NCBI GenBank assembly: GCA_017558145.1
Contig: JAFYWF010000076.1
Span: forward strand, 1 to 64,000
Source of the DNA: Lachnospiraceae bacterium
GTDB taxonomy: Bacteria > Bacillota > Clostridia > Lachnospirales > Lachnospiraceae
DNA: 64,000 bases
Direction: 5' to 3'
A model generated the notes under the pieces. It had not been told where the DNA came from. It did no database searches and saw only the letters and a program-made list of their open reading frames with translations. Below are positions 10,923 through 33,780 of this stretch, piece by piece (the stretch's first letter is position 1; every line of letters starts with the position of its first letter). A program made the position numbers and the translations under genes.

Positions 10923-10923
10923 T

Positions 10924-15293: not shown

Positions 15294-15294
15294 C

Positions 15295-17266: not shown

Positions 17267-17292
17267 TTGTCATGGATGTAATATTTATACAA

Positions 17293-17308
17293 AAAGTAAA
17301 TATAATCC
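17293..17308. promoter_or_regulatory. Candidate regulator site, copy 2 (upstream of the main binding protein)
   Basis: AAAGTAAATATAATCC matches the site at 13489-13504 with one difference in the 15-base core. It lies about 125 bp before the gene, a usual distance for an AraC-type activator. Confidence 0.3.
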
Positions 17309-17431
17309 AATAAAGGTGTAAATAAAATTCGATTTTGTGTAAATGAAATCTATTCATAGTTTAAGCCTCTCATGAGATAATTTGATAGAAGTCAGACAGA
17401 CTAAAAAATTATTTCATTGGGAGGTTTTTAC

Positions 17432-18754
17432 ATGAAAAAGAAATTAATTTCTATGGTATTAGCTTTAACCTTAGTAGCAGGAATGTTAACAGGTTGTGGC
17501 GGTGCTAAAGAAGAAACACCAGCTGCAGATAATGCAGCAACAGAAGCTCCTGCAGAAGAAGCAGAAGCTACAGGAGATCAAGAAGTATTAAAATTCTATC
17601 ATGCATATTTCCATGAAGAATCCGAATGGCCAGTAGCGGCAGTGATGAGAGACATTTATCAGCAGTTTGCAGATGCACACGCAGATGGTCCTGTTGTATT
17701 TGAACCAGTAGTTGTAGAAGATGTGTTACAGGTTGCTACAAATGAAATTGCTGGTGGTGAATTCCCAGATATGGTAGATTTTGCTGGTAATGAAGTACCA
17801 TTAGCAGCTATCGTTCAGGAATTAGTAGTTGATTTAAAACCATATATTGATGCTGAAGGTCTTCAGAGCAAAGTTGGTATCAACTATACAATGAATGATG
17901 TTGATGGAAAAGTTTACACAGTACATGATCAGTTAACAACTTTAGGTCTTTGGTACAATGCGGACCTTTATGAAGCAGCTGGAGCAGCTACACCAGATCA
18001 GTGGGCTACATATGAAGATATGGCAACTGCTATGGAAGCATTAAGAGCAAGTGGTGTATATGGATATAATGCAGGACAGGGTTCTGAACGTTTATTCAAC
18101 TCTTATATGGCAGTATTAGATGCAGAAGCTATGGCAAACCCATTAACTCCAGAAGTTATCAATTCAGAAGCTTTTGTTACAGCATTTAAAACAGTAGCTG
18201 CTATGGATCAGGCTAATGGTTCTGCTCACTCTACAAACAATGCTGGAGACTTTGGCGCAGATTTTACAGAAGGTAAATGTGCAACATGGATGAACGGTGT
18301 TTGGGCTGCAGGAAGCTTTAATGGTCTTGAAGCAAATATTTTACCAGGTATCTATCCATGCAGTGGTGCAATCGCAGCTACAGGTGGCGGATTAACAATT
18401 TCTGCTTCTTTATCTGACGCTCAGAAAGAATTAGCATTAGAATTCTTAAAATACATGACAAGTGACGAAGTACAGACAAGAATTTTCTTAGAAGTAAATG
18501 CAAACCCATGTAACCAGGATCTTGACTTAGAAGCTCTTGCAGAAGGCGTTGATAACCCTACAGTTAAATTATTAGCTCAGGCTTGTTCTTTAGCAAACAG
18601 TGCAGATTCTATTACAACTAATACAGGTTCTGCTTGGGGTGCAGATGTATACACTGCTATTATTAACAAATTGATTGAATGTTCTGTAGAAGGAACAGAT
18701 ATTGATGCAAAATTAGCAGAATTACAGTCTGAATTAATCGCTTTAATTGGCTAA
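17432..18754 (+). CDS. Extracellular sugar-binding lipoprotein, family 1 (main ABC binding protein)
   Basis: 440 residues with signal peptide and lipobox MLTGC (Cys22), then an Ala/Glu/Thr-rich linker and a family 1 solute-binding fold (YTVHDQLTTLGLWYNADLYEAAGAATPDQW; CATWMNGVWAAGSF). GGGAGG lies 7 nt before ATG 17432. Codon use here is smoother (many GCA, GAA, TTA) than in copy 1, which suggests high expression. A terminator separates it from the two permease genes, the usual way of making more binding protein than channel. It likely binds fucosylated oligosaccharides, judged from the GH29 gene downstream. Confidence 0.9.
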   Translation: MKKKLISMVLALTLVAGMLTGCGGAKEETPAADNAATEAPAEEAEATGDQEVLKFYHAYFHEESEWPVAAVMRDIYQQFADAHADGPVVFEPVVVEDVLQVATNEIAGGEFPDMVDFAGNEVPLAAIVQELVVDLKPYIDAEGLQSKVGINYTMNDVDGKVYTVHDQLTTLGLWYNADLYEAAGAATPDQWATYEDMATAMEALRASGVYGYNAGQGSERLFNSYMAVLDAEAMANPLTPEVINSEAFVTAFKTVAAMDQANGSAHSTNNAGDFGADFTEGKCATWMNGVWAAGSFNGLEANILPGIYPCSGAIAATGGGLTISASLSDAQKELALEFLKYMTSDEVQTRIFLEVNANPCNQDLDLEALAEGVDNPTVKLLAQACSLANSADSITTNTGSAWGADVYTAIINKLIECSVEGTDIDAKLAELQSELIALIG

Positions 18755-18762
18755 TTAGTAAT

Positions 18763-18800
18763 AAAGCCTGTTTTTCTCACAAGAGAAGAACAGGCTTTTT
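18763..18800 (+). terminator. Intercistronic terminator/attenuator between binding protein and permeases
   Basis: AAAGCCTG...CAGGCTTT with further pairing through TTCTC/GAGAA, then TTTTT. It is probably leaky, since the permeases show no separate strong promoter. Confidence 0.85.
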
Positions 18801-18852
18801 GTTCGATTTTAATTATTTTAGGATATAAAATAATGAGAGGAAAGGGTATAAG

Positions 18853-19764
18853 ATGAATAAAAAATCTAATAGAACAATTTTTATGACATTGTTTTTATTG
18901 CCTTCCTGTTTATGTTTCCTGATTTTCTATGCTTATCCTATTTTGCAGATTCTCGTAACATCTTTTTGTAAATGGGATTATACAAATTTGAAAAATCCAA
19001 CATTCTTCCCAGCGGGAGAATTATTGACTAACTATCAATATATTTTGACTCAGTATCCATATTTTTGGGAAGCTTTGCGTAACTCACTTTGCTGGGCACT
19101 GGTAGGTGTAGTAATTCAGGTACCATTAACACTGGTAGTAGCTATTGTAATTTCTAAGGGGTTAAAATTTTCTAAGTTTGCAAGAAACGTATACATTGTA
19201 CCAAGTGTAATTTCTTCAGCAGCTATGGGTCTTGTATTCTTACAGTTATACAATGCAAGATATGGTCCTATTCAGCAGATTATTCAAAAATTTAATCCTG
19301 AGTTTAAAGATAGTATTTTATTAGTAGAAGGTGCAAACTTCTGGGCAATCGTATGTGCATATGTATTTTTCTGCGGTACTACAGCTATTATGTTGTTAGG
19401 TCAGATTCATGGTATTGCACCAGAATTGTATGAAGCAGCTAAAATCGATGGAGCTACCGGGTTAAAGAGAGAATTATATGTTACTATTCCATTGGTTAAA
19501 CCAACAATAAAAACAGTAACAACTATGGCAGCAACTTCAGGTTTCTTACTTTACAATGAAGTGTTTTTCTTGACCAATGGTGCAGCTGGAACAAAATCTA
19601 TCAGTTTTATCATCAGAGAATTAGCAATTACAAGTAGTAGAACCCAGTATGCCAGAGCAAATACGATTGGTGCAATTCAGATTGTAATCGGTTTAATTTT
19701 AGTAGGAGTGATTAATATTATTTTCTCTGAATCAAAAGTAAGTCAGAAAGGAGGAAAAGCATAA
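18853..19764 (+). CDS. Sugar ABC transporter permease (MalF/UgpA type)
   Basis: 303 residues with about six membrane helices. The inner-membrane component MSD signature (EAA loop) reads YEAAKIDGATGLKRELYVTIPLVKP near residues 195-220. GAGAGGAAAGGG precedes ATG 18853. The stop codon shares one base with the start of the next permease (TAATG), so the two are coupled. No ATPase gene is in the cluster; importers of this CUT1 type commonly use a shared MsmX/MalK-like ATPase coded elsewhere. Confidence 0.93.
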   Translation: MNKKSNRTIFMTLFLLPSCLCFLIFYAYPILQILVTSFCKWDYTNLKNPTFFPAGELLTNYQYILTQYPYFWEALRNSLCWALVGVVIQVPLTLVVAIVISKGLKFSKFARNVYIVPSVISSAAMGLVFLQLYNARYGPIQQIIQKFNPEFKDSILLVEGANFWAIVCAYVFFCGTTAIMLLGQIHGIAPELYEAAKIDGATGLKRELYVTIPLVKPTIKTVTTMAATSGFLLYNEVFFLTNGAAGTKSISFIIRELAITSSRTQYARANTIGAIQIVIGLILVGVINIIFSESKVSQKGGKA

Positions 19765-20621
19765 TGGCAAAAGAAAAAATTAAAGAAAGTAACCCTATGA
19801 GCGTGCAAAAAGGGGAAGCAGTCTTTTGTTATATTGTAATGGCGATTATTTGTATCATCGCTTTATTCCCAATTATCTGGGTTTTTATTTCCTCATTTAA
19901 AGCTGATTTGTTGGCAGAACCAGGATTTACACTTCCAAGTAAACTTTGCTTTGACGGATATATTAGAGTATTTACGAAACTTGGTATTAGTAAATATTTT
20001 GTGAATAGTTTTATTACAGCAACAGGTGGTACTTTACTTAGTATTACAATGTTATCTATGTCTGCATATATTATTGCAAGATTCAAATTTAAAGGAAAAG
20101 GGCTGATTACAGCTTGCTTTATGGCAACTATGTTCGTTCCTTCTTCAGCATTAACATTCCCTGTTTATAACTTGATCAAAAATATGGGATTATTTGATAC
20201 GAGAGTAGGTTTGATATTTGTATATGCTTGTAGTGGTATTGCTGTAAGTTTCATGGTAATTAGAAACTATTTTGCTACAATTCCAGTTGAATTAGAAGAA
20301 GCAGCAAGAATTGATGGATGTACTTATTTCCAGACATTTGTAAAAATTATGCTTCCTATTGCAAGACCAGGTATCTTTACTGCTGCAGTATTGGCATGGT
20401 TAAATCTGTGGAATGAATTCTATTGGGCTTCCTTACTTATGATTGACAGAAGTAAGATGACAGTACCGGCAATTCTTTCTCAGTTTACTACAAGTTTTGG
20501 AACAGATTATAATGGTTTGCTTTCTGCAGTTGTTGTAACTATTATACCACCAGTATTGTTATTTACTTTTGCTAGTAAATACTTTATTGAAGCATTATCT
20601 GGTGGTGCGGTAAAAGGTTAA
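19764..20621 (+). CDS. Sugar ABC transporter permease (MalG/UgpE type)
   Basis: 285 residues, six predicted helices, with the EAA loop LEEAARIDGCTYFQTFVKIMLPIARPG near 175-200. It pairs with the previous permease in a CUT1-type importer. The ribosome site AGGAGGAAAAG is just inside the end of the upstream gene. The oxidoreductase follows 9 nt after its stop. Confidence 0.93.
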   Translation: MAKEKIKESNPMSVQKGEAVFCYIVMAIICIIALFPIIWVFISSFKADLLAEPGFTLPSKLCFDGYIRVFTKLGISKYFVNSFITATGGTLLSITMLSMSAYIIARFKFKGKGLITACFMATMFVPSSALTFPVYNLIKNMGLFDTRVGLIFVYACSGIAVSFMVIRNYFATIPVELEEAARIDGCTYFQTFVKIMLPIARPGIFTAAVLAWLNLWNEFYWASLLMIDRSKMTVPAILSQFTTSFGTDYNGLLSAVVVTIIPPVLLFTFASKYFIEALSGGAVKG

Positions 20622-20630
20622 GGAGGCAAT

Positions 20631-21887
20631 ATGAAAAAAAAATCAAAAAAAGTAACCGCTATTCTTTTAGGTGCGGGACACAGAGGTGCAGATGCATATG
20701 CTTCCTATGCATTACAGTATCCAGAAGAATTAACTTTTGTGGGAGTAGCTGAACCTAGAAAAGAACGCCGTGAGGAATTTCAGAAAGCCCACAATATAGA
20801 AGATAAATATGCAGTGGAAAGCTGGGAAGAATTGTTAGCGTTTCCTAAATTAGCAGATTTAGTATTGATTTGTACACAAGACCATATGCATATGGAACCA
20901 ATGGCAAAAGCTATGGAACTTGGATATGATATCTTAGTGGAAAAACCTATTAGTCCAGTAAAAGAAGAATTAGTTGATTTGAAAGAAAAAACGGAAAAGT
21001 ATGAAGGAATGATTAGCGTATGTCACGTTCTTCGTTATTCTCCATTCTTCCGTAAAATCAAAGAAATTATTGATGCAGGAACTATTGGTGAATTGATGAA
21101 TATCCAGCATATGGAAAGTATTGGTTTTTGGCATATGGCACATAGTTTTGTAAGAGGTAACTGGAGAAACACAGAAGAAAGTTCTCCAATCTGTCTTGCT
21201 AAAACATGTCATGACTTTGATATTTTATTATGGCTTACTGGAAAGAAATGCTTACGTGTATCTAGTTTTGGTAGCTTAAAGCTTTTCCGTGAAGAAATGG
21301 CTCCAGTCGGTGCACCAAAAAGATGTACAGATGGATGTCCTCACAGAAGTACATGTCCTTTCTTTGCTCCTAAGTTTTATTTAGAACATCCAAAAGCTAT
21401 TGTAGATGGTTTCAGAAAAGTAGTTACTATGGATGAAACTACAGAAGGCTTAATGGAAGCATTAAAAACAGGACCATATGGAAGATGTGTATATGCTTGT
21501 GATAATGATGTATGTGATCATCAGGTTGTAAATATGGAAATGGAAGGTGGACTTACAATTAGCTTTACCTTAAGTGCATTTACAAATGAATGTGAAAGAA
21601 TCATTACATTACAGGGTAGCCGTGGAGAAATTAAAGGATGGATGGAAGAAGATAAGATTGTTGTTACAGACTTTGTAACAGGTAATCAGACTGTTCATAA
21701 ATTAAATACTCCAAAAGTAGGACATAGTGGTAGTGATGCTTCTATGATGCAAGAATTAGTTTCCTTAATTGCAACAGGACGTCAGAAAGAAAACGTAAGT
21801 AATGCTACACAGGCAATTGATAGTCATTTGATTGCATTTGCAGCAGAAGAAAGTCGTTTAGCAAATGGAAAAGTAATTGAATTATAA
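20631..21887 (+). CDS. Gfo/Idh/MocA family oxidoreductase with Cys-rich insertion
   Basis: 418 residues. The Rossmann motif AILLGAGHRGADAY is N-terminal, and LVEKPISPVKEEL holds the family EKP signature with the catalytic Lys. The substrate domain carries a Cys-rich insert (RCTDGCPHRSTCPF near 227, then GRCVYACDNDVCDH near 285) that probably binds a metal. Such enzymes oxidise sugars or derivatives with NAD(P). Placed between the importer and a fucosidase, it may oxidise fucose or the sugar left after cleavage; no fucose isomerase, kinase or aldolase is nearby. AAGGAGG precedes the start. Confidence 0.85.
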   Translation: MKKKSKKVTAILLGAGHRGADAYASYALQYPEELTFVGVAEPRKERREEFQKAHNIEDKYAVESWEELLAFPKLADLVLICTQDHMHMEPMAKAMELGYDILVEKPISPVKEELVDLKEKTEKYEGMISVCHVLRYSPFFRKIKEIIDAGTIGELMNIQHMESIGFWHMAHSFVRGNWRNTEESSPICLAKTCHDFDILLWLTGKKCLRVSSFGSLKLFREEMAPVGAPKRCTDGCPHRSTCPFFAPKFYLEHPKAIVDGFRKVVTMDETTEGLMEALKTGPYGRCVYACDNDVCDHQVVNMEMEGGLTISFTLSAFTNECERIITLQGSRGEIKGWMEEDKIVVTDFVTGNQTVHKLNTPKVGHSGSDASMMQELVSLIATGRQKENVSNATQAIDSHLIAFAAEESRLANGKVIEL

Positions 21888-21909
21888 TACTGAAAATAGA
21901 GGAAATAAT

Positions 21910-23220
21910 ATGTCAAGAATGGATGAAATTAGAAATAGAACAAAGTGGTGGCAGAATGACCGCTTTGGTATGTTTATCCACTGGGGATTGTATTCTATAC
22001 CTGCTTGTGGAGAGTGGATGATGTCAGAAAAAGAAATGACAGTTGAAGAATACAAAAAGTACTTTGATTTGTTTGACCCTGTTGATTACGATCCTAAAAA
22101 GTGGGTAAAAGCAGCGAAAAGAGCAGGCATGAAATACATGGTGCTTACTGCAAAACATCATGATGGTTTCTGTTTGTTTGATTCTGCTTATACAGATTAT
22201 AAATCTACCAACACAAAAGCTGGAAGAGATTTAGTGAGAGAGTTTGTAGATGCTTGTAGAGAAGAAGAAATTAAAGTTGGTCTTTATTTCTCCATTATCG
22301 ACTGGTCACATCCAGATTTTCCAAAGTATGGTGATAAACAGCATCCAATGCGTAATAATGAAGCTTATAAAGATGAAAAGATTGATTTTGATAATTATCT
22401 TGAGTACATGCATAATCAGGTAAAAGAAATTGTTACTGGTTATGGAAAGTTAGATTTATTATGGTTTGACTTCTCTTATGATGATATGGTAGGAGAAAAA
22501 TGGAAAGCCACTGAATTAATTACTATGGTTAGAAAGTATCAGCCAGATGTTATTATTGATAACCGTTTGGAAGGTGCAGGAGATAATCATGGTAGCTTAA
22601 TTAGTGGAGAACCAACTATTTATAGTGGTGATTTTGTAAGTCCAGAACAGATTATTCCACCTGAAGGAGTTGTAGATGTTCATGGAAACCCAGTACCTTG
22701 GGAATTATGTGCTACTATGAATAACCACTGGTGCTATTGCAATTTCGACCATGAATACAAAACATCTAAGATGTTGATTCGTAAATTGGTTGAATGTGTA
22801 AGTAAAGGTGGAAACTTCCTTTTGAATGTAGGACCTGACGCAAAAGGAAATATGCCAAAAGAAAGTTTGGCTATCTTAGAAGAAATTGGACAGTGGATGG
22901 ATAAGAACTCTGAAAGTATTTATGGATGTGGAATCTGTGAACTTCCAAAGCCAGAATGGGGTAGATATACTCAAAAAGGCGATATTATCTACGCTCATGT
23001 ATTTGAAACTCCATTAGGAGCACTTCCATTAACTGGAATTGGTCCAGATCGTTTGGATAAAGTTTACTATGTTTCTGATGGTACTGAAATGAACCGTGGA
23101 GAAGCATGGAATACAGTTCTTTTCACAGATGCAGCATTTGTATCATTTGGGGATAACCCAGTATTTACATATGGTTTACCTGATGATAAAGATACTGTTT
23201 TAAAAGTAGTATTAAAATAA
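21910..23220 (+). CDS. GH29 family alpha-L-fucosidase, cytoplasmic
   Basis: 436 residues. RTKWWQNDRFGMFIHWGLYSIPACGEWMM and YMVLTAKHHDGFCLFDS are GH29 hallmarks. LDLLWFDFSYDD near 180-192 carries the expected nucleophile Asp of WFD. There is no signal peptide, so it acts inside the cell on imported oligosaccharides. ATG 21910 is chosen because GAGGAAATAAT lies directly upstream; an earlier in-frame ATG at 21877 overlaps the oxidoreductase. The product ends just after the catalytic and a short C-terminal region, without carbohydrate-binding modules. It is the last gene of the transport operon, with a terminator after it. Confidence 0.92.
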   Translation: MSRMDEIRNRTKWWQNDRFGMFIHWGLYSIPACGEWMMSEKEMTVEEYKKYFDLFDPVDYDPKKWVKAAKRAGMKYMVLTAKHHDGFCLFDSAYTDYKSTNTKAGRDLVREFVDACREEEIKVGLYFSIIDWSHPDFPKYGDKQHPMRNNEAYKDEKIDFDNYLEYMHNQVKEIVTGYGKLDLLWFDFSYDDMVGEKWKATELITMVRKYQPDVIIDNRLEGAGDNHGSLISGEPTIYSGDFVSPEQIIPPEGVVDVHGNPVPWELCATMNNHWCYCNFDHEYKTSKMLIRKLVECVSKGGNFLLNVGPDAKGNMPKESLAILEEIGQWMDKNSESIYGCGICELPKPEWGRYTQKGDIIYAHVFETPLGALPLTGIGPDRLDKVYYVSDGTEMNRGEAWNTVLFTDAAFVSFGDNPVFTYGLPDDKDTVLKVVLK

Positions 23221-23250
23221 GTTTTTGTTCTACCTTTATATTATATAGCG

Positions 23251-23297
23251 GGAACAGTCACATTTACGGGGAAGGGGTGTGGCTGTTTCTGTTTTTT
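23251..23297 (+). terminator. Terminator after the fucosidase gene
   Basis: GGAACAGTCACA pairs with TGTGGCTGTTTC through G-U wobbles, with TTTTTT at 23292-23297. Confidence 0.75.
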
Positions 23298-23339
23298 ATA
23301 GGTAAATTATTTTAAAATTAATAATTTTGAGGATGAAAT

Positions 23340-24092
23340 ATGACAGTAAATGAATTTTGGAATGGAATTAATTTACAAGAAAAGCAAAAAGAAGCTGTAT
23401 TAAAAAAGAATTTTGCTAAAGATGAATGTAATCATTTATGTGATTTATATAAGGAAAATCATAATCGTTTTTTTGAACAAATCTTGAATAAGGAAGATAA
23501 TGAACTTTGGTTTTTATGGTTGTATAGTCAAATGGCATGCAAGGTTTATGATTTGTATATAGAGGCAAATATTTCAGATAAAGTTTTTTGGGACACTTTT
23601 ATAGATATTCGTTTGTGGTGCGAGAATGCTGAAAAAGAGTATGGTGTTCTTGGAATAAAAGAATATGAATGGTTTTATAGACATATTGATATGGTATTAT
23701 TTCGTTTTGGCAGATTGCAATTTGAAGATACTGGAACGGAAATTAATATTCATATTCCACAAGGAGCTCCACTAATATGGGAAGACTGCGAGAAGTCGAT
23801 AAAAATGGCAAGGGATTATTGGGGGAATGATAAAACTTTTGTTTGCCATTCTTGGCTTTTATATCCAGGATTAGAAGAGCTATTAGACGAAAATTCCAAT
23901 ATTAAACAATTTAGAAAAAGATTTCATGTTATTAAAACAGATTATAATGAAAGAGAAGCAGAATGGCGTATTTTTGGTGAGGTTAAGAAAAATGTAACTG
24001 AATATCCAGAAAATACTATGTTGCAAAAAAAGGTAAAAAATTATTTGCTTAATGGAAAGTGTTTAGGAAATGGCTATGCCATATTAAAGTAG
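23340..24092 (+). CDS. Acyltransferase-like protein with GNAT_C type domain
   Basis: 250 residues. The C-terminal half (INIHIPQGAPLIWEDCEKSIKMARDYW... FVCHSWLLYPGLEELLDENSNIKQFRKRF... EAEWRIFG) matches a family usually annotated as acyltransferase domain-containing (NAT_N/GNAT_C) in Firmicutes. The N-terminal half is helical and Trp-rich. No signal or membrane segment. GAGGATG precedes the start. It lies after the fucosidase terminator, so it is probably expressed separately from the AT-rich gap. Substrate unknown; acylation of a sugar is possible given its neighbours. Confidence 0.65.
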   Translation: MTVNEFWNGINLQEKQKEAVLKKNFAKDECNHLCDLYKENHNRFFEQILNKEDNELWFLWLYSQMACKVYDLYIEANISDKVFWDTFIDIRLWCENAEKEYGVLGIKEYEWFYRHIDMVLFRFGRLQFEDTGTEINIHIPQGAPLIWEDCEKSIKMARDYWGNDKTFVCHSWLLYPGLEELLDENSNIKQFRKRFHVIKTDYNEREAEWRIFGEVKKNVTEYPENTMLQKKVKNYLLNGKCLGNGYAILK

Positions 24093-24207
24093 AAAAGAAA
24101 AAATATAATTTAATGCATATAATAGTGAAAGATGTAAATATAATGCAATGTAATATTAAAGATAATATTGTAAAATAAAGTAAATATGCAAAAGAGAGGG
24201 TATTTCA

Positions 24208-25914
24208 ATGAAAAAATTGACGAGGTACATGAAAGATAAATCTGTTAAGTTGAAACTAGATTTTTTGGTTAAAGTAAGTACTTGTTTATTATTTTTACTT
24301 GGTCTAGGTGCTTTGTTTGGAGCTTGGCAGTTGAATCAGGAAACAAAAGAGTTGAATGAAAGATGGATTAATGCGAATAATATGATAGCAGATTTGGATA
24401 ATTTAACAGCTTCTGTTAGATTAGAACAATATGCTCATGTTCTTTCAGATTCTAGAATAGAATTTGAGATACATGAAAATTCCATCAATAAATTAGTGGA
24501 AGAAATAGAGGGGTTAATTTCAGAATATGGTTCTTTAGTATCTAATGAAGAAGAAAGACAATATTATGATATGGCTTGTAGTGCATGGGATAATTATATG
24601 CAAGTAACAGGTGATGAGTTTATTTCATTAAGTCGTACTTTAAAAGTAGATGAAGCAAACGCTATAATGCTTGGAAAAGGGCTTGACTCTTTTACAGAAT
24701 TTCAGGAACAGTTTGATCTTTTAGTAGAGTACAATCGTGTAGGAGCCCAAAAAGCTGGTGAACTTGCAAATGTGGTTTTTTATGTGGTATGTATTTTAGT
24801 AGCTTTTTTAGTGGTAATAGCAACCGTAATTTCTAAAAATGTTGCAAAAACAATTATTAAAAGTATTACAAAACCTGTAGATGAATTAAAACATGCAGCA
24901 GCAGAAATGACTCAGGGAAGATTAAATGCAGAAATCGATTACGAATCTAAAGATGAATTAGGTTCTCTTGCTGATTCCATTCGTGAAGTACAAGTTACAT
25001 TGGGAGAATATGTTAAAGAAATATCAGAAACATTGGAAGTAATTGCCGGTGGAGATTTAACTAAAGATTTTAATCTTATTACAGAGTTTAAGGGAGAGTT
25101 TTACACTATCAAAACCTCTTTTGTTCAAATTTTGAAAGAATTTAATAATTCACTTGAAAAAATTAAAGAAGGTATCATGGATGTAGATCATAGTTCAGAA
25201 GAAATAGCTAGTGCTGCACAAGAACTTGCTACTGGAACTGGAGAACAAGCGAGTGCAGTAGAAGAATTAACAGCAACAATTGCATCAGTTAATCACATGG
25301 CTATAGAATCTGCAAAAGCAGCTAGTGAAGCAGCTCAAAAAGCTGCAGAATCTGTAAAAGATGCAGAAAGTGAAAGAATGCATATGGAAGAACTTCAAGA
25401 TGAAATGATTCGCATTAAAGAGATATCCGGTGAAATAGAAAAAATTGTTACAAGTATTGAAGAAATTGCATCACAGACAAGTCTTCTTTCTTTAAATGCG
25501 TCGATAGAAGCTGCAAGGGCAGGAGAAGCAGGAAGAGGTTTTGCAGTAGTAGCAGACCAGATAGGGAAATTAGCAACAGATTCTGCGCAAGCTGTAGTAA
25601 ATACAAAAGAATTGATTGCTAAGACAGTTGAAGCGGTAGATAAAGGTAGTGGCATGACAGAAACAGCAGCAGAAGGGTTCAGAAGAATTATTGGAGAGTT
25701 GGAAGGTTTTGCACAAATGGCTTATAGTGTAAGTGAGTCAGCTACTGCACAGGCAGGTGCTTTAGGACAAGTTGAAGATGGAATTGAACAAATTTCTGAA
25801 GTAACACGACAGAATGCGGCATCTAGTGAGGAGTGTTCTGCAATTAGTGAGGAATTAGCAGAAAAAGCTAGTAGAATGGCAAATCAAATTCAGAATTTTA
25901 AATTACATCAGTAA
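24208..25914 (+). CDS. Methyl-accepting chemotaxis protein
   Basis: 568 residues. Helices at about 20-42 and 188-212 bracket a four-helix-bundle ligand domain. A HAMP domain, apparently doubled (about 212-310), leads to the signalling coiled coil. The conserved hairpin tip [39 protein letters not shown] is near 415-455. No C-terminal pentapeptide for CheR tethering is seen. GAGAGGG lies upstream of ATG 24208. As cargo beside a sugar importer it may steer cells toward the same glycans. No flagellar or che genes occur in this window, so its partners are elsewhere. Confidence 0.9.
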
Positions 25915-26077
25915 TCAAAAATATCTTCTTAGAATTAAATAATAATGTTAAGGAGATAGATTGGTATTGATGGATAGATTTTCCTTTTTGATAATTTCCT
26001 ATAAATGATATCTTTATTCCTTTCGAAAATATGTATAGTAGAGTTTTATATTTTTAGAAATTAAAAAAGGGAAAAAA

Positions 26078-26105
26078 GAAGCACTTGCTATTTGGCAAGT
26101 GCTTC
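26078..26105 (-). terminator. Terminator for the RmlD-like gene
   Basis: A perfect 11-bp stem GAAGCACTTGC/GCAAGTGCTTC with a 6-nt loop. On the minus strand it is followed by a T-rich run. Confidence 0.75.
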
Positions 26106-26133
26106 AAACTGTATACAAAGTGAATAGAAAATG

Positions 26134-26170
26134 TAACCTCTGTGAATGTTTATTACATATGCAGAGGTTA
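26134..26170. terminator. Second stem-loop in the convergent gap
   Basis: TAACCTCTG pairs perfectly with CAGAGGTTA around a 19-nt AT-rich loop, with ATTTTAAT on the plus side. It may assist termination of the chemoreceptor transcript. Confidence 0.4.
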
Positions 26171-26226
26171 TTTTAATAATAACTTTGTCTATACTCTGAA
26201 AGTTTGTATCAGGATATTATGTGGTA

Positions 26227-27015
26227 TTACTTAAGAATTTTATAATCTTTAGCACAACATATTAGTCCTTCCAATGTATTACTGAAATGAATGCCGTATT
26301 TGTGAGCTTTTTCACAATTCATCCATAAATTATGCCTTGGTGGACAATCAAGCACATCAATTTCTTTCTTAATAATTGATAGGAATTGCTTGGTGATTTC
26401 ATACATAGAGTCTGTTGTTTCACTTCCAAAATTATAGACGCCACCGGGTAAAGAGATAGTGTTTTCCATATTTTCAGCAACTTCTTTTAAATAAGTAACC
26501 CCTCTATACATAGAAGAGCTAAAAGAAATAGAGTCTTTAGCATTTAATAAATTAATGAAATAATTACCTTTATTAGAATACATATCATACATCCATTCTG
26601 CACGTAGCATTATGGCAGATGGAAGAATATCTAATACTCTTTGTTCCATTTCTAATTTGTGTTTCCCATAAATATTAGCTGGATTTGCCATATTTTCTGA
26701 ATAAGGTCCATTTTCTGAGGTTCCATTATATACCTGATCTGAACTAAAACAAATCAATTTACGGTTTTGACAAGACTCTGCTAGGTATTGAGGAATAAGA
26801 ACATTTGCATGATAGGAAGCTTCTGGATTATTTTCGCAAACTCCAGTATCAGCAATTGCTGCAGTATGAATAATTACATCTGCATTACTTTCTTCAATTA
26901 TTTGTTTAATTTGTTCTTTTGTAGCATTATGTAGAGATGGTGCAGCTACAGAACCTTCTAAAGAATTTAGTAGTTTATTTCCAACAAATCCAGTTGCTCC
27001 GGTTATTAATATCAT
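26227..27015 (-). CDS. RmlD-like short-chain sugar-nucleotide reductase
   Basis: 262 residues, cytoplasmic. MILITGATGFVGNKLL is the NAD(P) motif, with IHTAAIADTGVCENNPE, CFSSDQVYNG and a YxxxK catalytic pair in IYGKHKLEME. This resembles dTDP-4-dehydrorhamnose reductase-like (extended SDR) proteins, though it is shorter than typical RmlD and no rmlABC genes are adjacent. On the minus strand AGGAGC sits 5 nt before ATG. It is the only minus-strand gene of the element and is divergent from the DUF932 unit. A specific rhamnose role is not supported by context. Confidence 0.75.
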   Translation of the reverse strand: MILITGATGFVGNKLLNSLEGSVAAPSLHNATKEQIKQIIEESNADVIIHTAAIADTGVCENNPEASYHANVLIPQYLAESCQNRKLICFSSDQVYNGTSENGPYSENMANPANIYGKHKLEMEQRVLDILPSAIMLRAEWMYDMYSNKGNYFINLLNAKDSISFSSSMYRGVTYLKEVAENMENTISLPGGVYNFGSETTDSMYEITKQFLSIIKKEIDVLDCPPRHNLWMNCEKAHKYGIHFSNTLEGLICCAKDYKILK

Positions 27016-27177
27016 AATTGCTCCTAAAACATTTAAAATATTTTCTGTGTATATGTATCATTATAACATTTTATTATTAACTAAGATAAAGAAAAGATAG
27101 AAATAAATGAGAATCGTATTTGTAAGTAAATCATCTATATATTCTTGAGGTAGAATATAGGAAATGGGGTGATTATA

Positions 27178-27276
27178 TTGTCAAAACGAAAGCTATTTGA
27201 TGTACTTGTAGCAGTTGTTACAGCAATTCTGGTAGTAGCTGACAAGGTAACTGACAAGGATAAAGAAATTGAATAA
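27178..27276 (+). CDS. Small 32-residue membrane-like peptide with TTG start
   Basis: The frame from TTG 27178 codes a Lys/Arg-rich start, then a hydrophobic stretch (VLVAVVTAILVVA) and a charged tail (DKVTDKDKEIE). GGGGTGAT lies 6 nt upstream of the TTG and a strong terminator follows 12 nt after the stop, which argues that it is expressed. It may be a small membrane peptide, holin-like or toxin-like; I do not recognise a family. It sits ahead of the DUF932 gene. Confidence 0.45.
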   Translation: MSKRKLFDVLVAVVTAILVVADKVTDKDKEIE

Positions 27277-27288
27277 AGGTTAAAGAAG

Positions 27289-27318
27289 AAGGGCTTCCCA
27301 TGATGGGAGGTCCTTTTT
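27289..27318 (+). terminator. Terminator after the small peptide gene
   Basis: AAGGGCTTCCCA pairs with TGGGAGGTCCTT (two G-U pairs) around TGA, followed by TTTTT. Confidence 0.75.
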
Positions 27319-27371
27319 CACATTCTTAGGTAACTATTAATTTATATAAACAAGAAAAGGAGAATTTAAAA

Positions 27372-28304
27372 ATGGCAGCAAATGTAGAAACAATGTTTTC
27401 AGTAAGGGAGAAACCTTGGCATGGACTAGGTAAGGTAGTAATGGAGGCACCAACATCAAAAGATGCATTAAAGTTAGCAGGATTAGATTGGAATGTAGTT
27501 CAAGAACCTATTTACACTGGCTTTCATAATGTGGTGGAAGGTTATAAAGCTAATGTCAGAGATTCAGATCGTAAAGTACTGGGTGTGGTATCCGATCGAT
27601 ATAAAGTAGTTCAGAATACTGATGTGTTTGGATTCACTGATGAATTATTAGGAAAGGGGGTAAGATATGAAACTGCTGGGTCACTACAGGAAGGAAAGAA
27701 AGTATGGTTACTGGCAAGACTACCAAGAGAATATATTATTGCAGGTGAAAGAATCAGTCCATATCTTGTATTCAGCAATACTCATGATGGCTCTGGATCA
27801 GTGAAAGTAGCAATTACTCCGGTTAGGGTATTATGCAATAACACATTAAATCTTGCACTTAGTACAGCTAGCAGAAGCTTTAGTATTGTTCATACTGGTA
27901 ACATTCATGACAAAATTCAAGAAGCAAAAAATACTTTATTCATGGCTGAAAACTACATGGATTGTTTAGGTGCTGAATTTGAAGAGCTGAGGAAACAGAA
28001 GATGACAGATGCACAGGTAAAGGAATATATTGAAGTACTATTGCCGCTAGAGAAAGATGCTTCAGAACTACAGAGCAAGAACATCATTAGATTACGTGAT
28101 GATATGAAAAGACGTTACTTTGATGCACCTGATTTACAGAAGGTAGGTAATAATGCTTACCGCTTTATTAACGCTGTGTCAGATTTTGCTACTCATGCAA
28201 ATCCACTGAGAAGAACTGCTAATTACAGTGAAAACTTATTTGCTAAAACTATTGATGGTAATCCGTTGATTGATAGGGCATATCAGTTACTTAAAACTGC
28301 TTAA
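27372..28304 (+). CDS. DUF932 family (phage/plasmid-like) protein
   Basis: 310 residues. NVETMFSVREKPWHGLGKVV at the start and RYKVVQNTDVFGF, SNTHDGSGSVKVAITPVRVLCNNTLNLAL further on are typical of DUF932 / phage-plasmid-like proteins. These are found mostly on plasmids, phages and integrative elements, and their biochemical role is not established. AAAAGGAG precedes ATG 27372. It lies just before the integrase fragment, which supports mobile-element origin for the right end of this block. Confidence 0.85.
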   Translation: MAANVETMFSVREKPWHGLGKVVMEAPTSKDALKLAGLDWNVVQEPIYTGFHNVVEGYKANVRDSDRKVLGVVSDRYKVVQNTDVFGFTDELLGKGVRYETAGSLQEGKKVWLLARLPREYIIAGERISPYLVFSNTHDGSGSVKVAITPVRVLCNNTLNLALSTASRSFSIVHTGNIHDKIQEAKNTLFMAENYMDCLGAEFEELRKQKMTDAQVKEYIEVLLPLEKDASELQSKNIIRLRDDMKRRYFDAPDLQKVGNNAYRFINAVSDFATHANPLRRTANYSENLFAKTIDGNPLIDRAYQLLKTA

Positions 28305-28341
28305 GTACAAAATGTGACAGTTGATGTTGTGTTGACTGCTA

Positions 28342-28446
28342 TAAGAATCCGAAATGAATTTTTCTAATCTCTTAAAAAATAAATAAACGCTAATTCATAC
28401 ATACGTATATCACGTCGATTAGAGAAAATTCATTTCGTCTTCTTAG
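28342..28446. repeat. Imperfect 28-bp inverted repeat between DUF932 and the integrase fragment
   Basis: 28342-28369 pairs with 28417-28445 (shared core CGAAATGAATTTT...CTAATC) with two mismatches and one bulge. The roughly 47-nt loop contains the palindrome ATACGTAT. No T-run follows, so it is not an ordinary terminator. It occupies the place where the missing N-terminal half of the integrase would be expected. Confidence 0.6.
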
Positions 28447-28511
28447 AACGATTGTAGAAGTAAAGGTTAATATGAAACATGATGATTATAAATTAAAACT
28501 TATTACATTAG

Positions 28512-29144
28512 ATGACGCATCCATTCTTTGTTGTAATATTTAACCTTGGGGTTAGAGTAGGTGAAGTGTGTGGAATTACTTGGGATAAAGTGGATTTAGA
28601 AAATTCTACGGTAAGAATAGAGCATTCACTTAATCGCTATAGAAAGTCTGAGTATGGATTTACCAATGCTCTTGGTACTACTAAAAGTAAAGATTCAAAT
28701 AGAATTATCGTATTTAATAATTTAGTAGCTGAAGCTTTTACCAAACAAAGAAAGTATCAATTGGCGAATGGAGTTGCTGTAAAAGCAATATCTATTGTAG
28801 ATGATTATGGGAGAGTAATTGGTGAAGCTAATAATTTAGCGTTTACACAGCTAAATGGCAGTGCTTGGAATGAACCAGGAATAATTAAACTCATTCATAG
28901 GATAGTAAAGAAGCAGAATGATTTGGCTGAAGTAAATAATACATCTAAGCTGGAATATTTCACACCACATCAAATAAGACATACATATACTACAATGGCA
29001 TTTGAAGCAGGTGTAGATAGTAAGCATGTTGCAAATCAGTTAGGACATGCATCTGATACTACCACTAGAGATACTTATACACACTTGCATGGTAAAAAGA
29101 AGAAAGAGCAGGAAGATATTGTAAATAAAATTAGAATAGGATGA
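28512..29144 (+). pseudogene. Tyrosine recombinase (integrase), N-terminally truncated
   Basis: Only the catalytic domain remains (210 residues; full-length relatives are near 380-400). Catalytic residues are present: Arg in NLGVRVGEVCGITW, a candidate Lys in TKSKDSNR, HQIRHTY (His and Arg), QLGHAS (His) and the nucleophile Tyr in TRDTYTHL. The core- and arm-binding N-terminal domains are absent. Immediately upstream the frame is closed by TAG at 28509. A short piece in another frame from ATG 28472 (KLKLITLDDA) looks like the start of the same domain, so there is a frameshift or deletion near 28500-28530. It sits about 250 bp from the right junction, the usual place for the integrase of such an element. 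Recombination activity is doubtful. Confidence 0.75.
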
Positions 29145-29162
29145 ATAATGATGAAAAGAGGT

Positions 29163-29200
29163 AAACCGGTTACACACAAGTTGTGACTGGTTTATTTTTT
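29163..29200 (+). terminator. Terminator after the integrase fragment
   Basis: AAACCGGTTACACA pairs with TGTGACTGGTTT (G-U and one mismatch), followed by ATTTTTTG. Confidence 0.65.
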
Positions 29201-29255
29201 GTGTGAGTTTTTTGATGGAGATAAATGCTATATATAATAGGAAGTAATGAAATCA

Positions 29256-29290
29256 TTTTGTGACAAATTTTGTGACAAATTTTGTGACAA
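29256..29290 (+). repeat. Right triple direct repeat, candidate integrase arm sites
   Basis: TTTTGTGACAA occurs at 29256-29266, 29268-29278 and 29280-29290, an exact 11-mer at a 12-bp period. The same 11-mer is present at the left end (9987). The cluster ends 107 bp inside the right core repeat. Confidence 0.65.
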
Positions 29291-29397
29291 TCGTGGTGAA
29301 TGATGCATAATGGTGCAACTTATAATTTTAAAGAAACCTAGAGAAAATGCAGTAATAATCAATGGTGTACAATAGTGGATAAAAAAATATTTCACCC

Positions 29398-29417
29398 TGT
29401 CAAGAAAAAATACTTGA
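29398..29417 (+). repeat. Right junction repeat (candidate attR core)
   Basis: Identical 20-mer to 9913-9932. The outer flank CACC extends the CTTGA arm to CTTGACACC, the exact inverse of GGTGTCAAG at the left outer flank. The inner flank CCC does not match. Confidence 0.75.
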
Positions 29418-29442
29418 CACCTTCTTTCTTTTCTTGTATTAT
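29414..29442 (+). promoter_or_regulatory. Sigma-A promoter of ylxM-ffh, overlapping the right core repeat
   Basis: A perfect TTGACA at 29414-29419, a 17-bp spacer, and TATTAT at 29437-29442. Transcription would start near 29449, so the ylxM ATG must be 29465 and the leader is very short. Confidence 0.85.
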
Positions 29443-29464
29443 AGCAAAGGTGAGTGTGAAGATT

Positions 29465-29779
29465 ATGGAAAAGTTAGTAGAACAAGGGCTTTTATATGAT
29501 TTTTATGGAGAGCTTTTGACAAAACATCAAAGAGAAATATATGAAGATGCTGTCTATCAGGATATGTCCTTAAGTGAAATAGCAGAGGAACATGGAATTA
29601 GTAGACAGGGGGTTCATGATTTAATTAAAAGATGTGACAAACTTTTATTAGGATATGAAGAAAGGCTTCATTTGGTAGAACGCTTCTCACGAATCAAGGA
29701 AAAGATTGAACAAATTGAAAGCCAGACTACTCAGGAAGAGATAAGAGAGTTGGCTACAAAGATTTTAGAGGAACTGTAA
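29465..29779 (+). CDS. ylxM: YlxM family helix-turn-helix protein, SRP-associated
   Basis: 104 residues, a small all-helical DNA- or RNA-binding protein with a sigma-70 region 4-like HTH ([38 protein letters not shown]). It is normally encoded directly before ffh and is associated with the signal recognition particle. Start 29465 is set by the promoter at 29414-29442, which excludes the upstream GTG at 29375. AAAGGTGAG serves as ribosome site close to the transcript 5' end. The ffh gene starts 3 nt after the stop. Confidence 0.9.
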
Positions 29780-29782: not shown

Positions 29783-31126
29783 ATGGCATTTGAAAGTTTA
29801 ACAGACAAACTACAAAGTGTATTTAAAAACTTAAGAAGTAAAGGCCGACTTACGGAAGCGGATGTAAAACAGGCATTGCGAGAAGTTAAGATGGCACTTT
29901 TGGAAGCCGATGTTAACTTTAAGGTTGTTAAGCAGTTCGTAAAATCGGTAGAAGAAAGAGCTGTTGGATTAGATATCTTGAATGGTTTAAATCCGGGACA
30001 GATGGTGATCAAGATTGTTCACGAAGAAATGATTAATCTCATGGGGTCTGAAACCACCGAGATTGCATTTCAGCCGGGAAAATCTATTACGGTAATTATG
30101 ATGTGTGGTTTGCAAGGTGCAGGTAAAACAACTACCACAGCTAAGATTGCCGGGAAACTGATTAAAAAAGGAAAGAAGCCATTGTTGGTAGCATGTGACG
30201 TATATCGTCCTGCGGCGATTAAACAGTTACAGATAAATGGGGAAAAGCAGGGTGTAGAAGTTTTTGCCATGGGCGAAAACCACAATCCTGTGAACATTGC
30301 AAAGGCAGCGATAGAGCATGCACAGAAAAATGGACACAATGTTGTGATTCTGGATACTGCCGGTCGACTTCATGTAGATGAAGACATGATGGCAGAATTG
30401 GAAAATATTAAAAAAGAAGTGGAAGTTCATCAGACCTTATTGGTAGTAGATGCTATGACAGGTCAGGATGCAGTAAATGTAGCCGGTGAATTCCATTCCA
30501 GATTAGCTATTAACGGCGTTGTATTAACAAAGATGGATGGTGATGCACGAGGTGGTGCAGCGCTTTCTGTAAAAGCTGTAACAGGAATTCCTATTTTGTA
30601 TGTCGGTATGGGAGAAAAACTTTCTGATTTGGAACAGTTTTATCCGGACCGAATGGCAAGCAGAATTTTAGGAATGGGCGATGTACTTTCTTTAATTGAT
30701 AAAGTACAGGAAAATGTTACCATTGATACCCAGAAAAGCAAAGATATAACTTCTCGAATGAAAAAAGGGAAGTTTGATTTTGAGGATTATCTGGAAAGCA
30801 TGAAACAGATGCGTAATATGGGTGGTCTTGGAAGTATTTTAAGTATGATGCCGGGTATGGGTGCTAAAATGGGTGATATTGAGTCCATGGTAGATGAAAA
30901 ACAGTTGGCTAGAATGGAAGCTATTGTTCTTTCTATGACACCGGCAGAAAGAACCAATCCTAAATTATTAAATCCAAGCCGTAAGCACAGAATTGCAAAA
31001 GGTGCAGGAGTGGATATTGCAGTAGTAAATCGTTTTATCAAACAGTTTGAACAAAGCCAGAAGATGATGAAACAGATGTCTGGTATGATGGGGAAAAAGG
31101 GCAGAAGAATGCGTTTCCCATTTTAA
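29783..31126 (+). CDS. ffh: Signal recognition particle protein Ffh
   Basis: 447 residues, the SRP54 GTPase that binds signal sequences and SRP RNA and docks at FtsY. N domain helices are at about 1-85. The G domain has GLQGAGKTTTTAKIA (P-loop near 108), DTAGR and TKMDGDARGGAAL. The Met-rich M domain follows (MKQMRNMGGLGSILSMMPGMGAKM, ending in QKMMKQMSGMMGKKGRRMRF). It has the usual family length. It lies 3 nt after ylxM, with about 150 nt to rpsP. Confidence 0.97.
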   Translation: MAFESLTDKLQSVFKNLRSKGRLTEADVKQALREVKMALLEADVNFKVVKQFVKSVEERAVGLDILNGLNPGQMVIKIVHEEMINLMGSETTEIAFQPGKSITVIMMCGLQGAGKTTTTAKIAGKLIKKGKKPLLVACDVYRPAAIKQLQINGEKQGVEVFAMGENHNPVNIAKAAIEHAQKNGHNVVILDTAGRLHVDEDMMAELENIKKEVEVHQTLLVVDAMTGQDAVNVAGEFHSRLAINGVVLTKMDGDARGGAALSVKAVTGIPILYVGMGEKLSDLEQFYPDRMASRILGMGDVLSLIDKVQENVTIDTQKSKDITSRMKKGKFDFEDYLESMKQMRNMGGLGSILSMMPGMGAKMGDIESMVDEKQLARMEAIVLSMTPAERTNPKLLNPSRKHRIAKGAGVDIAVVNRFIKQFEQSQKMMKQMSGMMGKKGRRMRFPF

Positions 31127-31277: not shown

Positions 31278-31523
31278 ATGGCAGTTAAAATCAGATTAAG
31301 AAGAATGGGTTACAAAAAACATCCAATTTACAGAATCGTAGTAGCAGATTCTAGAGTAGCAAGAGACGGAAAATGTATCGATGAAATCGGAACATACGAT
31401 CCAAACGTACAGCCAAGTGCAATTAAAATCAACGAAGAATTAGCAAAAAAATGGTTAGCAAACGGTGCACAGCCAACTGAAACAGTTGCAAAACTCCTTA
31501 AAGTAGCAGGTATCGAAAAATAA
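31278..31523 (+). CDS. rpsP: 30S ribosomal protein S16
   Basis: 81 residues, typical S16 ([47 protein letters not shown]). An assembly protein of the small subunit body. GAAAGGAG precedes the start. The 150-nt leader from 31127 contains a small GGAGA/TCTCC hairpin close to the ribosome site, which could be regulatory, but I cannot assign a known motif. Confidence 0.97.
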
Positions 31524-31568
31524 TTGTAGTTATTTTTTGACTTGGAAAAATGCTTTTGGAGGTGGATC

Positions 31569-31796
31569 ATGAAAGAATTAGTGGAAGTTATCGCAAAAGC
31601 TCTTGTTGATAATCCGGATGAAGTAGTTGTGACAGAGAAAAAAGAAGGTAGAAACATTAAAGTTGAACTTCATGTTGCACCTACTGATATGGGTAAGGTT
31701 ATTGGAAAACAGGGTCGTATTGCTAAAGCAATGCGTACTGTTGTGAAAGCTGCCTCTGTTGGAGATAAAACAAAGGTAGATGTTGATATAATCTAA
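31569..31796 (+). CDS. khpA: KH-domain RNA-binding protein KhpA (YlqC)
   Basis: 75 residues, a single KH domain with the GxxG loop in MGKVIGKQGRIAKAMRTVVKAA. In Firmicutes it forms a complex with KhpB (Jag) and binds RNAs linked to cell elongation and division. Start 31569 follows GGAGGTGGATC; an earlier in-frame ATG at 31542 lacks a site. Position between rpsP and rimM is the conserved one. Confidence 0.93.
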   Translation: MKELVEVIAKALVDNPDEVVVTEKKEGRNIKVELHVAPTDMGKVIGKQGRIAKAMRTVVKAASVGDKTKVDVDII

Positions 31797-31799
31797 CTA

Positions 31800-31834
31800 T
31801 GAAAGGTACTTCTTAACAGGAGTACCTTTTTTAT
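31800..31834 (+). terminator. Terminator hairpin between khpA and rimM (possible attenuator)
   Basis: AAAGGTACTTC pairs with GGAGTACCTTT (11 bp with one wobble) around a 6-nt loop, then TTTTTA. Its 3' arm also belongs to a longer competing stem. Confidence 0.8.
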
Positions 31835-31880
31835 CTCATAGGGGAAGGTTATGACTGTTCTATGAGATAAAAAAGGCACT
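31821..31880 (+). promoter_or_regulatory. Candidate antiterminator stem ahead of rimM
   Basis: 31821-31841 pairs with 31860-31880 over 21 positions with a single mismatch and an 18-nt loop. It overlaps the 3' arm of the terminator, so the two structures exclude each other, as in transcription attenuation. The controlling signal is unknown. Confidence 0.45.
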
Positions 31881-31905
31881 GAGTATAAAGAAAGTTGAGA
31901 CATAT

Positions 31906-32415
31906 ATGGAAGAAAGATTTCAAGTGGGTGTAATTACATCGACACATGGTATTAAGGGAGAAGTAAAGGTTTTCCCTACCACAGATGATGCCAGACGATT
32001 TAAGAAAAATATGGAAATAATTCTCGATACAGGAAAAGAAGATATTCTTTTAACAGTAGAGAGTGTAAAATTCTTTAAACAGTTTGTAATTTTAAAGTTT
32101 AAAGGAATAGATAATATTAATGATATTGAAAAATATAAAACCAAATCCTTGTATGTTACAAGAGCAAATGCCGTAAGACTGAAAAAAGATGAGTATTTTA
32201 TTGCAGATCTTATAGGAATAGATGTATGGGAAGATAATGGTGAAAAATTAGGTATCTTTAAAGATGTCATAGAGACAGGTGCTAATGATGTATACGTAAT
32301 TACATTAGAGGACGAAAAAGAATTGTTGCTTCCTGCTATTAAGGAATGTATCTTAGATGTTGATGTTGAAAATAGAAAAATGACAGTTCATGTAATGGAT
32401 GGTTTAAGGGATTAA
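31906..32415 (+). CDS. rimM: Ribosome maturation factor RimM
   Basis: 169 residues. N-terminal beta-barrel (FQVGVITSTHGIKGEVKVFPTTDDARRF) and C-terminal PRC barrel (IADLIGIDVWEDNGEKLGIFKDVIETGANDVYVI... LLPAIKECILDVD). It binds S19 in the 30S head and helps its maturation. It is preceded by the terminator/antiterminator element and followed by trmD, the conserved order. Confidence 0.96.
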   Translation: MEERFQVGVITSTHGIKGEVKVFPTTDDARRFKKNMEIILDTGKEDILLTVESVKFFKQFVILKFKGIDNINDIEKYKTKSLYVTRANAVRLKKDEYFIADLIGIDVWEDNGEKLGIFKDVIETGANDVYVITLEDEKELLLPAIKECILDVDVENRKMTVHVMDGLRD

Positions 32416-32477
32416 TTTATCCATAAAATTTGTTATTTCAATCATATTAACAATAAAGAAGCAGAATGGAGATATCA

Positions 32478-33275
32478 ATGAATTTTCATATACTTACTTT
32501 ATTCCCGGAAATGGTATTGCAGGGATTGAATACCAGTATTATAGGCCGTGCCTGTGAAAAAGGTTTGTTGTCTATTAATGCTGTAAATATTAGAGATTTT
32601 ACCACGGATAAGCATAAAAAAGTGGATGATTATACCTATGGCGGAGGTGCAGGTATGTTGATGCAGGCTCAGCCGGTGTATGATTCCTACCAACATGTTG
32701 TTAACAACATGAAGACAAGGCAACGTCCCAGAGTGATTTATGTGACACCGCAAGGGAGAGTGTTTAATCAAGCCATGGCTAAAGAAATGGCAATGGAACA
32801 TGATTTGATTTTTTTATGTGGTCATTATGAAGGTATAGATGAAAGAGTATTAGAAGAAATCGTTACAGATTATGTGTCTATTGGTGATTATGTATTGACG
32901 GGAGGAGAACTTCCGGCAATGGTTATGATTGATTCTATATCCAGGATGGTTCCAGGTGTTTTGAGTAATCAGGAATCAGGAGAAACAGAGTCATTTAGCG
33001 GCAATTTATTGGAATATCCACAATATTCTCGTCCTGAAGAATGGAATGGAAAAAAAGTACCTGAGATTTTGCTTAGCGGTCATCATAAAAAAATAGAGGA
33101 ATGGCGATTGGAGCAATCAATTCAGCGTACAAAGGAAAGACGTCCTGATTTATATGAAAAGTATGTGGAAGAACAAAGAAGATTAGAAGCTTTAAATCCC
33201 AAAAAGAAGAGAAAATATAAAAGAAATTTAAAAATACAATCAGAAAATCAGGTAAGTAAAAATCAAGAAGAATAA
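32478..33275 (+). CDS. trmD: tRNA (guanine-N1)-methyltransferase TrmD
   Basis: 265 residues. A SPOUT enzyme that makes m1G37 with SAM and prevents frameshifting. MNFHILTLFPEM, DDYTYGGGAGMLMQ, LCGHYEGIDERV and the knot region SIGDYVLTGGELPAMVMIDS are all intact. A Lys/Arg-rich tail (KKKRKYKRNLK) makes it about 20 residues longer than usual. ATG 32478 is used because GGAG lies 8 nt upstream. Confidence 0.96.
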   Translation: MNFHILTLFPEMVLQGLNTSIIGRACEKGLLSINAVNIRDFTTDKHKKVDDYTYGGGAGMLMQAQPVYDSYQHVVNNMKTRQRPRVIYVTPQGRVFNQAMAKEMAMEHDLIFLCGHYEGIDERVLEEIVTDYVSIGDYVLTGGELPAMVMIDSISRMVPGVLSNQESGETESFSGNLLEYPQYSRPEEWNGKKVPEILLSGHHKKIEEWRLEQSIQRTKERRPDLYEKYVEEQRRLEALNPKKKRKYKRNLKIQSENQVSKNQEE

Positions 33276-33330
33276 TGGGAAAGAGCATAAAAAAGTGGTA
33301 TATTTTTGATATATTATGCTTGAAAAAAGC

Positions 33331-33359
33331 TTGATTTATTAAATAACCCATGATATACT
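33331..33359 (+). promoter_or_regulatory. Promoter of rplS
   Basis: TTGATT at 33331-33336 and TATACT at 33354-33359 are 17 bp apart. The transcript would start near 33366 and give rplS its own supply independent of trmD. Confidence 0.65.
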
Positions 33360-33365
33360 ATTACA

Positions 33366-33432
33366 GTTGTTAAGAATCGATGGTCCTCTGTTGCAATCTG
33401 CATTAAGAACATCCAGAGAAAAGGAGAAAGAC
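33366..33432 (+). ncRNA. rplS 5' leader, possible L19 autoregulatory structure
   Basis: The leader forms a CTCTG/CAGAG-closed stem around GTTGCAATCTGCATTAAGAA just upstream of the ribosome site AAAAGGAG. Its place matches L19 leaders known in low-GC Gram-positives, but I cannot confirm the consensus by eye. Confidence 0.35.
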
Positions 33433-33780
33433 ATGAACGAAATTATCAGAAGTATCGAAGCAGAACAGTTAAGAACTGACGTTGCAGAATTTGCAGTAGG
33501 TGATACTGTAAAAGTTTACGGTAAAATCAAAGAAGGAAACCGAGAAAGAATCCAGGTATTTGAAGGTATCGTGTTAAAAAGACAGGGTGGAAGCAATAGA
33601 GAAACTTTCACAGTAAGAAAAATGTCTAACGGCGTTGGTGTAGAAAAAACTTGGCCATTACACTCCCCTAACGTAGAAAAAATCGAAGTTGTTAGAAGAG
33701 GTAAAGTAAGAAGAGCTAAATTGAACTACTTAAGAGAAAGAGTAGGAAAACGTGCTAAAGTTAAAGAATTAGTAAGATAA
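33433..33780 (+). CDS. rplS: 50S ribosomal protein L19
   Basis: 115 residues ([78 protein letters not shown]). It sits at the 30S-50S interface. Start 33433 follows AAAAGGAGAAAGAC; upstream in-frame codons belong to the leader. A terminator follows. Confidence 0.97.

Follow-up and report, generated by a model that had tools for sequence, protein, structure and literature searches.

A conserved palindrome at the ylxM-ffh promoter as a candidate YlxM operator and integrase attachment site

The ylxM-ffh promoter and the interval beside it

The window, by which we mean the whole 64,000-nucleotide stretch that was analysed, carries on its plus strand an operon whose first gene is ylxM (29465–29779). 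The product is a UPF0122 protein with an HTH resembling sigma region 4, assigned from PF04297, PF04545, NF045758 and a structural match, and we propose that it represses its own operon. The gene is followed by ffh (SRP54; 29783–31126) and then by rpsP, a KH-domain gene (KhpA-like), rimM, trmD and rplS (31278–33780), which are presumed to be the remainder of the operon. According to PMC8637298, the ylxM-rplS operon of B. subtilis has a gene order identical to that in the window.

Upstream of the conserved ATG of ylxM (29465), the window sequence contains the −35 hexamer TTGACA (29414–29419) and the −10 hexamer TATTAT (29437–29442), separated by 17 bp. A predicted transcription start and short leader, with a Shine-Dalgarno-like GGTGA at its 5ʹ end, would occupy 29449–29464. 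The window has one exact match to the pattern TTGACA-N15..19-TATNAT, yet at least one is also found in 50 of 100 shuffles, so the hexamer match alone is little proof of a promoter. The −35 hexamer is also the right half-site of a perfect 22-bp palindrome, TGTCAAGAAAAAATACTTGACA (29398–29419), which is present as a single perfect copy in the genome from which the window comes. On the strength of its phylum-wide conservation upstream of ylxM, described below, we refer to this palindrome as O1, the candidate operator of ylxM-ffh; it also contains the right core of a putative attachment site.

The core is a direct repeat. Exactly 20 bp, TGTCAAGAAAAAATACTTGA, are found at both 9913–9932 and 29398–29417, at the two ends of the interval that they enclose, and this is above chance (two matches with at most three mismatches, as compared to 0.01 expected). 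The left copy, TGTCAAGAAAAAATACTTGATG (9913–9934, plus strand), is a putative attL whose first 20 bp are identical to the right core. The right core and the next two bases together form the perfect inverted repeat TGTCAAG-AAAAAATA-CTTGACA, with a spacer of 8 bp. A preliminary description of this DNA had reported TTGACA and TATTAT at 17 bp, with the first hexamer starting inside the core repeat. Both observations are confirmed: the repeat ends at 29417, and hence the −35 hexamer of ylxM-ffh overlaps the attachment core by TTGA, with CA (29418–29419) falling outside.

The putative 19.5-kb interval between the cores (9913–29417) may be a decayed or composite element. Near its right end are genes for a DUF932/TIGR03299 phage/plasmid-like protein (27372–28304) and for the C-terminal remnant of a tyrosine integrase (28512–29144), both on the plus strand. 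The frames upstream of the remnant are broken, and no intact integrase was found in the window, where the open frame covers only the C-terminal 210 aa. A DUF3990 gene just inside the left core (10443–10922) has a weak match to polyvalent-protein ADP-ribosyltransferases. Genes named by eye from their translations as sensor kinase, response regulator, sugar ABC transporter, oxidoreductase and alpha-L-fucosidase-like lie between the cores at 13563–23220; this set may be cargo or may be native. A 726-aa gene in the left flank was found in one of seven genus genomes, namely the window's own, and there was no same-species empty site among them.

Two proteins in a set of 150 genomes of the family come closest to the window integrase (46% and 56% identity over fragments), and both are encoded just upstream of ylxM. 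Of five loci from a further search for relatives, we used one, L111, since the matches in the others (L112 to L115) were weak or short. The L111 integrase has 64% identity to that of the window; its gene precedes ylxM and the associated palindrome by ~1.2 kb and is full length, with a 433-aa open frame of Tn916 type (PF02920, PF14659, PF00589). Thus, all three relatives with at least 46% identity over a sizeable stretch are encoded just upstream of ylxM, like the window's own integrase, whereas matches of 36% identity or lower were not beside ylxM in the two genomes compared (G177 and G068). Because the closest relatives adjoin ylxM, the attB of this integrase clade appears to be the ylxM operator. 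Beside ylxM in two other genera there are integrase fragments, of 69 aa (L040:2651–2845) and 145 aa (L016:868–1254); from these fragments, integrase decay at the ylxM site is a repeated event.

A viral attP was not identified among 16 phage or viral stretches with copies of the core, none of which has ylxM or this integrase in the DNA examined. Several of these copies are in apparent coding sequence or in promoter-like gaps. In one viral contig (L119:2423–2441), the same palindrome occupies a promoter-like place between genes that we named by eye as HTH repressor-like and antirepressor-like.

Conservation and position of the palindrome

Whether or not an element is present, other genera have the same 22-bp palindrome ahead of ylxM. 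We scored 270 unique ylxM loci over 12 fixed positions, with a threshold of at least 10; 256 loci reach this score, as compared to 171 of 5400 shuffles, and 187 have the perfect palindrome, as compared to 1 of 5400 shuffles. Similarly, 131 of 138 ylxM upstream regions score at least 12/14, a level reached by only 1 of 124 coding bodies of ylxM and by 1.3% of dinucleotide shuffles.

The exact pattern was found in 109 of 150 family genomes, which represent 150 genera (reversed-pattern control, 11/150; by-eye count), in 88 of 157 order genomes, and in 79 of 199 phylum genomes, usually in one or two copies per genome. Among the matches listed, 64 of 75 for the family and 64 of 75 for the order (128/150) are within 300 bp upstream of ylxM; among the 75 listed for the phylum, 52 are near ylxM, 10 are elsewhere, and 13 are in genomes for which no ylxM was listed. 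YlxM itself (PF04297) is present in 148/150 family, 152/157 order and 188/199 phylum genomes. Of the 11 phylum genomes that lack YlxM, not one has the pattern, as compared to 79 of the 188 that encode the protein. Two YlxM-less genomes in the family and order samples (G024 and G279) have one match each, in apparent coding sequence.

These data bear on a central claim of the preliminary description, that the element supplies the −35 region of ylxM-ffh. The claim is not borne out: the same palindrome and promoter are found upstream of ylxM across the phylum, and hence the hexamer is better viewed as a long-standing feature of the host, exploited by the element.

The palindrome occupies two positions relative to the promoter. 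It lies either over the −35, as in the window (O1), or just past the −10, ahead of the start codon (O2). By the score used for the 270 loci, 88 have O1 only, 114 have O2 only, 54 have both and 14 have neither; for loci with both, the spacing is mostly 45–62 bp. That the letters are kept while the position shifts is the behaviour expected of a repressor operator. A −10-like hexamer (at least 4/6) is found 16–18 bp downstream in 68 of 71 O1 sites.

Three loci (L228, L235 and L237) have the variant TGTTAAG-N8-CTTAACA, with the identical change in both arms. In five others (L211–L213, L221 and L231), YlxM closely resembles the Pfam model, and these loci likewise have one or two operator-like sites, some of them N7-spaced.

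The fold of YlxM and its recognition helix

The window YlxM scores 91 bits against PF04297 (cut-off 22.7) and 110 bits against NF045758 (cut-off 80). Its structural model has a pLDDT of 94 and matches the UPF0122 structures 1s7o (Z 13.5) and 1xsv (Z 12.1). The model also matches region 4 of sigmaA bound to −35 DNA (1ku7; Z 8.6, 1.7 Å over 65 residues), although a shared fold shows no function. The VIA-align comparison covers only chains ranked by Foldseek, such that the absence of a fold carries no meaning.

We compared YlxM columns 5–74 with six symmetric pairs of operator positions, using Fisher tests whose p values ignore relatedness. The top link is between R47 and the outer G2/C21 pair, which is kept in 227 of 245 loci with R47 and in 5 of 25 without it (p 1.5e-15, relatedness ignored). 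D52 ranks first for the inner G7/C16 pair (p 5e-6, relatedness ignored), followed by R56. Overall, the operator is perfect in 176 of 220 loci that have the consensus residues at positions 47, 48, 52 and 56, as compared to 11 of 50 that have any change. With R47K, the outer G·C pair is mostly kept. R47P, which is confined to two families of one order (f5 and f16), pairs with sites resembling TATAAAG/CTTTATA; the best-scoring site is changed in 18 of 19 such loci, although some of these sites are weak. Within f5, both members with R47 keep TGTAAAG/CTTTACA, and with it the TGT/ACA ends. On the YlxM tree there are only two supported independent pairs, which leave the tree-corrected test underpowered; they go in the predicted direction but do not reach significance. 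A scan of every YlxM column for mutual information with operator base 4 did not make the recognition helix stand out.

Are these links consistent with the way in which sigma factors read DNA? We aligned the YlxM helix by eye to the sigma70 helix, and on this basis we take R47 to be equivalent to R584, Q48 to E585, and H51 to R588. YlxM carries R47, Q48 and mostly H51. In PMC2613000, R584 of sigma70 is described as contacting −31, where R584A prefers A:T, and E585Q and R588H are described as relaxing −33. The operator base equivalent to −33 is relaxed, being T in 61%, G in 23% and A in 16% of O2 sites. Together, these comparisons suggest that operator changes track the YlxM recognition helix, and that the association of R47 with the outer G·C pair matches the contact of sigma70 R584 at −31.

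A proposed autorepressor, its alternatives and known systems

What is the function of the palindrome? The best reading is that it is ancient and belongs to the host, serving throughout the phylum as an operator of the SRP operon, and that certain integrases use it as a landing site; the protein most likely to bind it is the first product of the operon, YlxM. The 22 bp at 29398–29419 can be viewed as a pair of −35-like half-sites in inverted orientation, one of the pair doubling as the −35 of the operon. A YlxM dimer would sit on the palindrome, each subunit recognising CTTKACA just as sigma recognises TTGACA; in this position it would compete with RNA polymerase and so repress ylxM-ffh-rpsP-khpA-rimM-trmD-rplS. 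A Tn916-type integrase would take O1 as its attB and, because the core of the element carries the left half-site TGTCAAG, integration would leave the 22-bp operator and the promoter whole. What we observe are the conservation, dyad symmetry, position and rarity elsewhere of the palindrome, the sigma-region-4 fold, and the matched changes in helix and operator; that YlxM binds, dimerises and represses, and that this integrase carried out the integration, we infer. We consider it probable that YlxM is a sigma-mimic autorepressor acting through O1, and that a Tn916-type integrase uses O1 as attB and rebuilds it. More tentatively, and with slightly more doubt than confidence, we propose a wider role: YlxM may be a phylum-wide sigma mimic, either descended from sigma region 4 or converging on it, that reads mirrored −35 hexamers, occupies the promoter when in excess over SRP, and thereby matches supply to demand, with mobile elements having adopted the operator and rebuilding it. 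The idea of an excess over SRP draws on PMC8546722, in which the S. mutans protein is described as an accessory of the SRP, with Ffh and the small SRP RNA as its binding partners.

That same described role in SRP itself could be taken to favour an alternative, that the palindrome is a real operator bound by a regulator other than YlxM. We consider this unlikely. Among the matches listed, the site is nearly confined to ylxM; it is missing from all YlxM-less genomes of the phylum sample; and it varies with those YlxM helix residues that match sigma-DNA contacts.

A second alternative, which we judge slightly less probable again, is that the symmetry acts in RNA, with O1 forming an intrinsic terminator for upstream genes, or O2 a translational hairpin in the leader. 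Consistent with this, the arms of 31 of 71 O1 sites extend into a longer stem (outer pairing of at least 3 bp), as compared to 7 expected, and the joined flanks of the interval fold at −15.0 kcal/mol. However, the other 40 O1 sites have no extra stem, the letters within the inner half-sites are themselves fixed, which pairing alone would not require, and the ylxM mRNA contains O2 but not O1. Moreover, Rfam gave two matches, both far under their gathering scores, and hence no family at threshold, and changes in the site track the YlxM helix. Part of the O1 symmetry may nonetheless serve a termination or hairpin function at some sites.

The preliminary description also suggested that integration tunes ffh expression by swapping the region upstream of the core, which we consider just as improbable as a role in RNA. 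The swap itself stands: the sequence 5ʹ of the core is not the same in the integrated site as in the rejoined flanks, the outer hairpin would be weaker after integration (−7.6 kcal/mol at the right end), and transcription arriving from upstream would differ. However, the consequence for ffh is weakened because the element core bears the same left half-site; integration changes neither the promoter nor the 22-bp operator, nor any base downstream of about −51.

It is very unlikely that the palindrome is an attachment site and nothing else, conserved through repeated integration of related elements. The palindrome does contain the core repeat in the window, and the closest integrases adjoin it, but the site is also found in genera with no second core nearby, it is shifted to O2 or doubled at many loci, and its distribution is phylum-wide. 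Finally, we reject the idea of divergent promoters that share back-to-back −35 hexamers, the least probable of all: each arm reads TTGACA outward, but a −10 of at least 5/6 follows in 57 of 71 O1 sites in the forward direction and in only 1 of 71 in reverse.

If the autorepressor reading is correct, a conserved operator at the head of ylxM-ffh-rpsP-rimM-trmD-rplS would give a regulatory job to YlxM, a protein known mainly as an SRP accessory, and would link protein export to ribosome production across a whole phylum. It would also explain the choice of site by the integrase, since an operator can hardly drift and the element restores it on insertion. Given the match between helix and operator, a single protein and a single DNA fragment would suffice to test the proposal directly. 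In the literature searched, in which few subscription journals were represented, we found no earlier description of this ylxM operator and no operator or regulatory role for YlxM.

The proposed system resembles several that are known. The protein encoded beside the site shares its family and fold with YlxM/UPF0122 (PF04297, NF045758; 1s7o, 1xsv); the role described for it in PMC8546722, an SRP accessory that binds Ffh and SRP RNA, is unlike the regulator that we propose. Sigma-70 region 4 on −35 DNA (1ku7) shares the fold (Z 8.6), the recognition-helix arginine and a −35-like half-site. In contrast to sigma-70 region 4, YlxM is a stand-alone protein that would face two inverted half-sites, the places of E585 and R588 are taken by glutamine and mostly by histidine, with relaxation at the −33-like base. 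The plasmid repressors KorA and ArdK (7bcb, 5clv) have a related HTH fold (ArdK, Z 8.5) and bind operator DNA; they are plasmid-borne, whereas ylxM is a chromosomal gene bound up with the SRP operon. Lastly, the likeness to Tn916-type tyrosine integrases lies in the PF02920, PF14659 and PF00589 domains of the L111 relative. The window clade differs from these integrases in that it is found at one fixed site, the ylxM operator, where the window copy persists as a remnant.
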